Shown one piece after another: positions 17,401-29,400 of a stretch of 64,000 bases of DNA. Within the stretch, counting starts at the first letter, position 1. Each line of letters begins with the position of its first letter. The position numbers and the translations under genes were made by a program. Source of the stretch: Dioscorea cayenensis subsp. rotundata (Eukaryota; Streptophyta; Magnoliopsida; Dioscoreales; Dioscoreaceae); the NCBI RefSeq assembly GCF_009730915.1, contig NC_052475.1, positions 27,217,016 to 27,281,015 on the forward strand, in the 5' to 3' direction. Below the pieces are notes generated by a model. It worked only from the letters and a program-made list of their open reading frames with translations. It did no database searches and had not been told where the DNA came from.

Positions 17401-20400
17401 TAATAATTAGTCAATAACAAATATAAATTAATTAATTGATAAATCGTGGAGCTGCTTGCCAGTTGGAGCAATGACTTGCTTCTCTTTAAATGGAAGATGG
17501 CCCAAGCCATGCTCAACAACCTGCTTAAGAAATATAGATTGATTCAATGGATTCACCAAAGGTAGTTCCCTTTAAAATATAATAAAAAGGTTCTTACCAG
17601 ACGTATTAATCTATCTGCATAAAATATGAAATCATGTTTTGTTGTTTTTGCATCCCGTATTAGTGTATGCATACCGCGTATCTGGAAATGTTTTGCAGGT
17701 ACCATTCAGCTGATAATTATGGATAAAAACACACACAAAAAAAAGAAGGGGAATAATGGTATCCAAGAGTAGCCACAAAGTTTCAACAAATAAACAGTAA
17801 GTTTATTGAGAATACCACCTGGAAGATTGGGTGAATGCAGTGATTTGGGCTGCTGTTTGCAAAAGATCATGTTGGACTCAGTTTGTTGTGTATATGCACG
17901 CACAATCAGATCAATCAGTACATTAAGATTATCTCCAAATCACGGGGCATGATAATATCAGCATACNNNNNNNNNNNNNNNNNNNNNNNNNNNNNNNNNN
18001 NNNNNNNNNNNNNNNNNNNNNNNNNNNNNNNNNNNNNNNNNNNNNNNNNNNNNNNNNNNNNNNNNNNNNNNNNNNNNNNNNNNNNNNNNNNNNNNNNNNN
18101 NNNNNNNNNNNNNNNNNNNNNNNNNNNNNNNNNNNNNNNNNNNNNNNNNNNNNNNNNNNNNNNNNNNNNNNNNNNNNNNNNNNNNNNNNNNNNNNNNNNN
18201 NNNNNNNNNNNNNNNNNNNNNNNNNNNNNNNNNNNNNNNNNNNNNNNNNNNNNNNNNNNNNNNNNNNNNNNNNNNNNNNNNNNNNNNNNNNNNNNNNNNN
18301 NNNNNNNNNNNNNNNNNNNNNNNNNNNNNNNNNNNNNNNNNNNNNNNNNNNNNNNNNNNNNNNNNNNNNNNNNNNNNNNNNNNNNNNNNNNNNNNNNNNN
18401 NNNNNNNNNNNNNNNNNNNNNNNNNNNNNNNNNNNNNNNNNNNNNNNNNNNNNNNNNNNNNNNNNNNNNNNNNNNNNNNNNNNNNNNNNNNNNNNNNNNN
18501 NNNNNNNNNNNNNNNNNNNNNNNNNNNNNNNNNNNNNNNNNNNNNNNNNNNNNNNNNNNNNNNNNNNNNNNNNNNNNNNNNNNNNNNNNNNNNNNNNNNN
18601 NNNNNNNNNNNNNNNNNNNNNNNNNNNNNNNNNNNNNNNNNNNNNNNNNNNNNNNNNNNNNNNNNNNNNNNNNNNNNNNNNNNNNNNNNNNNNNNNNNNN
18701 NNNNNNNNNNNNNNNNNNNNNNNNNNNNNNNNNNNNNNNNNNNNNNNNNNNNNNNNNNNNNNNNNNNNNNNNNNNNNNNNNNNNNNNNNNNNNNNNNNNN
18801 NNNNNNNNNNNNNNNNNNNNNNNNNNNNNNNNNNNNNNNNNNNNNNNNNNNNNNNNNNNNNNNNNNNNNNNNNNNNNNNNNNNNNNNNNNNNNNNNNNNN
18901 NNNNNNNNNNNNNNNNNNNNNNNNNNNNNNNNNNNNNNNNNNNNNNNNNNNNNNNNNNNNNNNNNNATATGTTCACTTCAATGAAAAAGTGGATAAAACC
19001 AACAGTTTATTGAAAGCAGAAAAGCACACGGGAAAACAAAAGCAGGCTAAGAGTTCTCACAAGAAGTGTAGAGCTCAGGAAAAGTAAATACAAGAAAGGA
19101 AAAAGTAAACAAGGTAAGGCAGCTGGGAAAGCGAAGAAATCCGACTGGAGTCACAGGACAATCCGAGCTGCAGAGTGGAGTAGATTACTCGATTCAGTTG
19201 AGGGCCAGTGTTGCCGATGTAGTCTTCGATCCGAGCTCGGGGAAGTCGAGGGAGCGCTTAATCTTCGAGAGAAGCTTCGATTGAGATTTTGCTGATTGGG
19301 AAGAGGAGCTGTAGAAATCCAAGTAACCAGCAAATTAGAAATTTTGAATAAATTATGAGTAAAAGGTAAAGCAGTGCATTGGAAAATGCGCTTATTTCTT
19401 TCAAGCCAAATATTCCAAATAATGGCTCTAGAAAGTAAATCCCACAGCAGTCTAATGTTTGAGTGTAATGAAGGTATCCAGTTGGTCCAGATGATTGAGA
19501 CAGCAGAAGGTAAATCTGGTAGCTCAAGGGCGTTAGAGAAGAAGGACCAAATACGGTTTGAATAAATACAGTCCAAGAATAAATGTTCCACTGTTTCTGA
19601 ATCATTATGACAGAGAAAACAAGTGTCAGTGGCATTAGGATTGCACCCCTTTCTAAAGAGGTTATTGAGAGTATGAATTTTGTTGTCCCAAACAAGCCAG
19701 CAAAAAAGTGTAATTTTGCTTGGACAATGAATTTTCCAAAATTTAGGGTATAGCGGACAGCGTAATCCTCCGTCAATTAGAAATTTGTAGAAGGATTTAA
19801 CAGAGAAAATGCCGTTCTTTTCAAGTGTCCAGGTAGAAGAGTCTTGCTGATCTTGATTACAATCCGGAATTAAGCTTAAGAAATTGGTTAAATCAACTCG
19901 TGAAACAGTATGAAAAAGATTCTCAGCAGAATTGCGAAGGCATGAGAAGAGTCTTAAGGAAATCCACTGTTGAGAACAATCGTTGAAAAGGGTTGGCCAA
20001 AGATCCTTAAGAGCATGATTCCCTAACCATCTGTCAAACCAAAGAAGTGTATCATTGCCATCTTTAATAGTTTTGGTAATACATGATCTAAAAGATGGAA
20101 GGGAGGTAATGACACCGGACCAAAAAAAGGATTTGTTCCTTGGAGGAGTATGAAACAAAGTTCCAGGTAGGTTAAAGGTGTAATTGGATCTGATGATTTT
20201 GGCCCAGCACAAGTTAGAATTAGTAGTGAGTTTCCACCACCATTTTCCAAGAAGGGCAATATTGAATTCATGAATGTTGAGGATTCCCCAACCGCCCATG
20301 GAACGAGGCCTACAAATTCGATTCCAAGCAACCAGTCTAGCTCTTTTAGAATTCAAGTCAGAACCTTTCCAAAGGAAGTCCCTACGAGTCTTGTCAATTT

Positions 20401-26400: not shown

Positions 26401-29400
26401 NNNNNNNNNNNNNNNNNNNNNNNNNNNNNNNNNNNNNNNNNNNNNNNNNNNNNNNNNNNNNNNNNNNNNNNNNNNNNNNNNNNNNNNNNNNNNNNNNNNN
26501 NNNNNNNNNNNNNNNNNNNNNNNNNNNNNNNNNNNNNNNNNNNNNNNNNNNNNNNNNNNNNNNNNNNNNNNNNNNNNNNNNNNNNNNNNNNNNNNNNNNN
26601 NNNNNNNNNNNNNNNNNNNNNNNNNNNNNNNNNNNNNNNNNNNNNNNNNNNNNNNNNNNNNNNNNNNNNNNNNNNNNNNNNNNNNNNNNNNNNNNNNNNN
26701 GATATTCATTAGAGCTGCTTGCCGGTTAGACTTTAATGACACTTCCTCTCTTTAAATGGAGATGTTTTGTTCATGCTCAACATTATAACTTAAGAAATAT
26801 AGATTGATTCAGTGGAGTTTCACCAAGGTGGTTTCCCTTTAAAATATAATAAAAAGGTTCTTGCAGACGTGATTAATCTATCTGCATAAAATATGAAATC
26901 ATGTAACGTTGTTTTTGCATCCACGTATTTAATTTGCCACATACATGCGTATCTGGAAATGTTTTGCAGGTACAGAACTCAAGCTGATAATTATGGATAA
27001 AAACACACACACACAGAAGGACAATGGTGTCCAAGGTAGCCACAAAGGTTTCTAACAAATAAACAGTAAGTTTATTAGAGAATACCACCTGGAAGATTGC
27101 GTGAGATAGTATCAAAGATTTGTCTCTGTTTGCAAAGATCGCTTTTGACAGAGTTTGTTGTGTATATGTTGCACAATCAGATCAATAGCCACATGATTAT
27201 CTCCACCACGGGGCATGATAATATCAGCATACTTCTTTGTTGGCAGTATGAAATTTTCAAAAGCAGGTTTGACAAATTTGGCATACTGCACAAACAGCAT
27301 GCAAAGTTAAGGCATGCAGAGAAGTAAAAATTAAACAATTTGATTAAAAAAACATGAGCAAGTTAAATTGCTGATTGATGATTTCATATTTTTCTTTGAA
27401 GCATGCATCATATGAGTATTATAGCACTCAATACACTTGCATAAATGTCCTTGCTGCCAATTGCCATTTATGGCTTTTCAGTCCAGAATGATTAACTTGG
27501 GTTTAAAAGTGCACTGACCGTTGAAAACACAATTCTTTGTGAGTTTCAAATTGTTTAGACGAAAATATTCAACCAAAATAGTTTTTTTCATCATTTTAGA
27601 TCTGCTCTCACCATTAAGCTATGAAGACCATCCCAGAAAGACATTCAAGCATCTGAATTTTCAAAAATAAGGAAAAAAAAAAGAGAGATGCAAGTGTATG
27701 TAGGCAATTTGAGAAGGGATATACACACTTACAAGTGTATAAAATATGCATGATGAAATTTACTGGCATATATTATGCCTATAGCATTGATAACCATCTA
27801 GAAACTACAATGTCAAAGCATATTTAAAAGCAGGTCACATTAAATATGAAATCAATCATGACTGACTGGTTTTACTAAGTGATATGGAGGCGACGTGATA
27901 GACCCCATCATGTTTCAAGGTCCACACCTTCCATTAATAACAGGATAAGAGCACTTTTAACTCTTTCATGTCATATGTCTCGCCCAGGATCTCTTACAGT
28001 CTCAGGGCTTCCTTCAACTTTTTTCAATCCGACTTGAGGCAAGTTTTCAGAACTGGTTTGTTCTGTAGCCATGAACCACTTATTTCAGTTGTATGCCTTG
28101 ACCAACAAAGGATCTTTATTGCAGTCATTGGCTCTCAATTTTGGTGTAAAATCATTGTTCTGACTTAATCCATGACAGAACACATTTGTACTAAGCTCTC
28201 TATACAGCTACAATTTCAGCATAGAAGGGTATCAAAAATAAAATTGCCATGTTGTACCCATCTAGGCTTGTACTGGTAATAGGGGCACTGATATTTCCAT
28301 GTGTTAAATCTTTTAAATGGCTAGAATAATTAAAATTATTTCCCCATAAACACTCAGAATTCTTATGTAATCTCCTTTCCTGAGAATATATTAATAAAGC
28401 TGTCAAACTTTAATCTATAGAAACGGGGTTAGCATCCACATTTTCTCACCAAGAAACTAAACAGGGTTTGCATAACCTTGCAGGACTCTTTGCCACTTGG
28501 ATCACATTCAATAGCCACATAAAGCAGCTAATCTATGAATCATTTGGATAGGTAGTCTACACATAACAAGAAATGCAAGTGTGCCACCATAGTAAGAAAT
28601 CACTTGACGCTCACTGATGCACAAACTAGCCACCCTTATAAGCTACTTTTACTCCAATAAAATAAAAAGCTATTGACTAAAACTGATATTTCTTTTGACT
28701 GACAAAGAAAGGAAATGTACCATAGAAGGCTTCAAAGAGCAAAGTTCACAAACCTGGTCAAGGACGCCTTTAATGTCTCTACCCCTATCAACCGTATCAC
28801 GCCCTATTCTCCTTGCTAAGCGAACATCAGCATCTGGACTAGGGAAACAAAAGACATTAGAAGTAAAAAAGATCAACAATCAAGCTGTTAAAACATGTAA
28901 AACAGAAGTACAAAAATTAATACGGCAGAAGAGTGTTTACTGCTGACGTGATAAACATTAGCAAACAAACACTTATTTAATCCAAATTACATTGTTAAAT
29001 AACTACAATTATGTACAGACCTCCAGAGTTACGATAGCATGTAAAAAAGATGAACCAGTACTTAAGGCTCCTTCCAAACAAGGTCAAGGAGGATTTAAAT
29101 GTATGCAAGCTCACAATCACATGCAAAGAGGTTATTTTTTTTTTATCTATAACCTCGATGCAAAAAATTCCCAAGAAACTAATAGTCTTTTACACACAGC
29201 CACCAACTCCTGTCCTCATGATAAAGTTGTTTACCTGTATCAACAAATATCTTCATGTTCATCAAATTGCGCACACGAGGATCATGGAATACCAAAATCC
29301 CTTCCATAATTACAACATCGGAAGGATTGACCTGACATAGAGTGAGAGCCAAAGTTAATGTGGAGATCAAGCAAAACGGAAAAAATTGAACTGGGCTGTG

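Follow-up and report, generated by a model that had tools for sequence, protein, structure and literature searches.

The 64,000-nucleotide window analysed here (C5:27217016-27281015, in an assembly of 584,211,761 bases and 2249 contigs) contains a gene in which three exons appear twice, with a LINE retrotransposon between the two copies. The types of gene and LINE point to a flowering plant. Does this arrangement belong to the genome, or to the way in which the assembly was put together? The duplicated E6-E8 segment and the interposed LINE are very probably an assembly artefact and not biology; the gene most likely holds a single copy of E6-E8 and no LINE at this position. Exon numbers are our own, E6 being the sixth exon located.

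The window contains two N runs in all (17967..18966 and 25701..26700, no strand), each of exactly 1000 N. Both look like scaffolding spacers, whose size would be nominal. Open reading frames crossing them have no meaning and were disregarded. No N was present in the other assembly loci retrieved, and the gaps examined are these two. They divide the window into a left contig, a LINE contig and a right contig.

The two outer contigs carry parts of one minus-strand gene. Its 3′ part, on the left contig (14448..17437), comprises exons E9-E13 with the UPRT domain. The 5′ part, on the right contig (27233..31595), was annotated from the P-loop exon onward; it ends within E6, of which it carries the first part, and includes the PRK/uridine kinase domain. 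When four pieces of the gene were scanned against Pfam, PRK was matched by 27115-27306 and 29182-29403 and UPRTase by 14448-14588, and the E8 piece (17431-17571) gave no match. Translated, the joined exons match solved structures of UPRT (best E 2.2e-66) and of uridine-cytidine kinases 1 and 2. With PRK and UPRTase domains both present in one gene, the locus shares the domain combination of what we take to be its family, the plant uridine kinase/UPRT-type (UKL) genes. Its exons are colinear across the outer contigs, the 5′ half on the right and the 3′ half on the left, in order.

The left overlap copy (17438..17966, minus strand) forms the end of the left contig, and contains the later part of E6 in garbled form together with clean E7 and E8. 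The right overlap copy (26701..27232, minus strand) forms the start of the right contig, and contains garbled E8 and E7 and an E6 that is clean from ~27151 upwards. An earlier note had read these as the same kinase segment, in the same orientation, at the outer edges of the two gaps, and both blastn and the N coordinates agree. Among the left, LINE and right contigs, the sole inter-contig blastn match links 17449-17966 on the left with 26712-27232 on the right, in the same orientation (E 4.5e-125; 81.9% identity in an alignment of 541 columns). Smith-Waterman alignment widens it to 17438-17966 and 26701-27232, or ~530 bp. Global alignment of the copies yields 459 matches, 40 mismatches and 63 gap bases, so that they differ at ~18% of columns; its score is 695, whereas shuffling the letters of the right copy 200 times never gave more than 123. 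The match runs to the final base of the left contig and begins 0-11 bases into the right contig, forming a dovetail. A real duplication would have no reason to stop at both contig ends, unless it abutted the LINE. A whole-assembly search with the 518-bp piece listed at least three matches, namely itself, the other copy and one paralog exon on contig C2; no third copy of the overlap segment was among the matches listed, such counts being lower bounds.

The paralog on contig C2 (L003), which is in frame, served as a referee, with 3096 bases compared. Matches of 100% between exons and the window are circular, the peptides having been taken from the window, and the paralog comparison alone counts. 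In the paralog, E5 to E9 occur once each, in order, inside 1.7 kb, exons beyond these falling outside the piece compared. Left E7 and E8 each read in a single frame, with 26/29 and 19/21 residues identical to the paralog. Left E6, which adjoins the gap, has 14/47 identical residues in its best frame, with stops present and nine gap events relative to the paralog. The pattern is reversed on the right, where E6 has 30 identical residues within positions 1-45 of its 47, with 25 of these in the first 27 shared residues, after which it decays (from ~27150). Right E7 is readable at residues 10-26 only (15 identical), and right E8, which adjoins the gap, is unreadable (4/21 identical). Reading frames are lost in E6 on the left, and in both E7 and E8 on the right. 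Paralog exon frames in this way bear out the mirrored quality previously proposed, in which the left copy is clean away from its gap and the right copy shows the reverse. The gradient needs one refinement, as neither copy is of good quality halfway through the overlap (~17820-17880, equivalent to ~27090-27150).

Exon-start spacings point the same way. In the merged gene they would be, from coordinates, 338 bp (E6-E7), 161 bp (E7-E8) and 896 bp (E8-E9), compared with 356, 150 and 843 bp in the paralog; as drawn, E6-E7 spans ~9.6 kb. The paralog spacing fits the merged gene and not the drawn gene. Relative to this UKL-type stretch with E5-E9 once each, the window is drawn with E6-E8 twice and ~9.27 kb too long (27232-17966 = 9266 bp), which matches the ~9.3 kb of excess length claimed beforehand.

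An assembly artefact is preferred because the overlap reaches both contig ends, the broken frames are mirrored, the exons are colinear and the spacing fits a merged gene. Two contigs of one uridine kinase/UPRT-type gene would overlap by ~530 bp, and their error-rich ends, disagreeing at ~18% of columns, would never have been joined. Scaffolding would then have set the contigs next to each other across a 1000-N spacer, and inserted into the break a LINE contig of 6.7 kb, made of repeat alone and accompanied by a second spacer. The errors may stem from shallow read coverage or a lack of polishing where the contigs end, and the LINE contig was presumably placed here on poor evidence. The suggestion that these are overlapping contig ends left unmerged is supported by the way in which the match dovetails, by errors that mirror each other, by the paralog's one set of E6-E8 and by the colinear exons.

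The arrangement resembles a known type of error. The VGP account describes false homotype duplications as arising from overlapping sequences at contig boundaries that dovetail and are left with a gap after scaffolding, the duplicated piece often being as long as a corrected read (PMC8081667). A further study (PMC9516828) counts among the marks of false duplication a gap separating the members of a duplicated pair and, in homotype cases, very low depth. Judged from sequence, depth aside, the duplicated segment would fit this type. It shares with the VGP description tandem copies, here probably from one locus, that dovetail where the contigs end and are separated by a gap, and here too the consensus is poor and differs between the copies, as judged from reading frames. 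Two features differ: the window has a repeat contig and a second gap between the copies, and its overlap of ~0.53 kb is short against the corrected-read length often expected in the VGP account (PMC8081667). This is an ordinary, known assembly error that matters only to users of this assembly. Automatic annotation of the locus would yield a gene with repeated and disrupted exons, 9.27 kb of surplus length and an internal LINE, which might be taken for a pseudogene or a partial duplication.

The LINE contig (18967..25700, minus strand, 6734 bp) consists of a full-length LINE plus short non-LINE edges of ~15 bp at its start and ~30 bp at its end. Pfam identifies, all on the minus strand, ORF1 with DUF4283 and a zinc knuckle (25678-24200), an endonuclease (22872-21631), an RT piece (21554-21009) and a zf-RVT piece (20515-19151). 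This is the full set of a plant L1-like LINE retrotransposon, the family to which we assume the element belongs, and its relatives, as in that family, share the 3′ edge and end at many lengths. It departs from the family in an ORF2 frame broken in places and in the absence of a visible poly(A) tail at the contig edge. At least 52 other match rows were found for it in the assembly, some being pieces of one copy; the search scored 40 of 1882 candidates, and its counts are lower bounds. The closest listed relatives are 94-97% identical over kilobases. None of the 52 listed rows begins before contig base 15, and 17 begin at bases 15-19, which places the edge of the element at the contig start; 7/11 retrieved relatives likewise begin there. 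A T run of at least 12, equivalent to poly(A) on the LINE strand, lies directly outside the 3′ edge in 3/8 relatives shown. At the other edge, examined in three relatives, two stop at 25669 and 25672 and the third at 25589.

The first 150 bp of the LINE contig agree less well with its relative L026 (0.85-0.92) than most inner bins do (0.88-0.99). An error-rich contig start was considered on this basis and found to be weak, given that relatives also diverge there (L026 or L029 against L030 or L032, 0.805-0.832). Two further LINE copies, L025 (C3:269517-275064) and L027 (C3:516454-522049), lie ~247 kb apart and are 94% and 88% identical, respectively, to the window LINE. Their outer flank is common to both (92% over 1482 aligned columns), and the insertion and its flank have therefore been duplicated, truly or falsely.

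At E 1e-6 the LINE contig gives no blastn match to either neighbouring contig, in line with the earlier statement that it contains no kinase sequence. It could nonetheless be rightly placed if the LINE were a heterozygous insertion in the gene, with the outer ends still falsely overlapping. One haplotype would then have a full-length LINE in E6 and hence a broken allele, and the break in the assembly would stem from the difficulty that the assembler met at this point. Such a reading is very improbable. It is consistent with a contig that is just a full-length LINE with short edges, and with the TTCAC or TTCACT found at both of those edges, which may be chance. When joined, the edges align weakly to E6 of the right copy, with a score of 31 that is reached by 7/2000 shuffles. 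However, the left copy scores 24 (319/2000 shuffles as high), other places in the window score 31-33, and once the choice of cut and place is allowed for, 127/300 random window flank pairs equal the joined edges. Taken alone, the 32-bp edge (score 21) is equalled by 205/300 random pieces and the 15-bp edge (score 18) by 57/300. The LINE edges were accordingly dropped as a mark of a kinase insertion site, the suggestive shuffle test being undone by the random flank pairs. Their fit to the kinase overlap does not exceed chance, and no other tie between the contig and this locus emerged, although 15 and 30 bp are too short to decide. The LINE is likely foreign to the locus, if unproven; the claim that its contig was misplaced gains support from a content that is nearly all LINE and from edges at chance level, and falls short of proof.

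Contig ends from different haplotypes, too divergent to merge, would make the overlap a heterotype false duplication, which would likewise place the copies at contig ends across a gap and would accommodate the ~18% of columns that differ. Heterozygosity does not, however, predict that conserved exons lose their frames in both copies in mirror fashion, towards the end of each contig, and the assembly matches listed include no additional copy of the segment, making this a very improbable account. Least probable of all, to the point of being scarcely credible, is a real LINE insertion with a target-site duplication of ~530 bp, or a real partial tandem duplication holding the LINE: the copies would likewise abut the LINE on both sides, but mirrored decay is unexpected, an 18% difference is ill-suited to an element with listed relatives 94-97% identical, and target-site duplications usually measure some 5-20 bp, far less than ~530 bp.

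Several smaller repeats occur elsewhere in the window. Two direct 265-bp copies at 5282-5822 (78% alike, 276 bp from start to start) sit inside a 470-aa minus-strand frame (5004-6416). Close direct repeats are found at 45822-46072 (111 bp, 96%) and 55484-55621 (69 bp, 96%). A proline-rich reading frame on the minus strand (47226-47876) contains a repeat spaced at 45 bp, with four register copies at 47290-47504.
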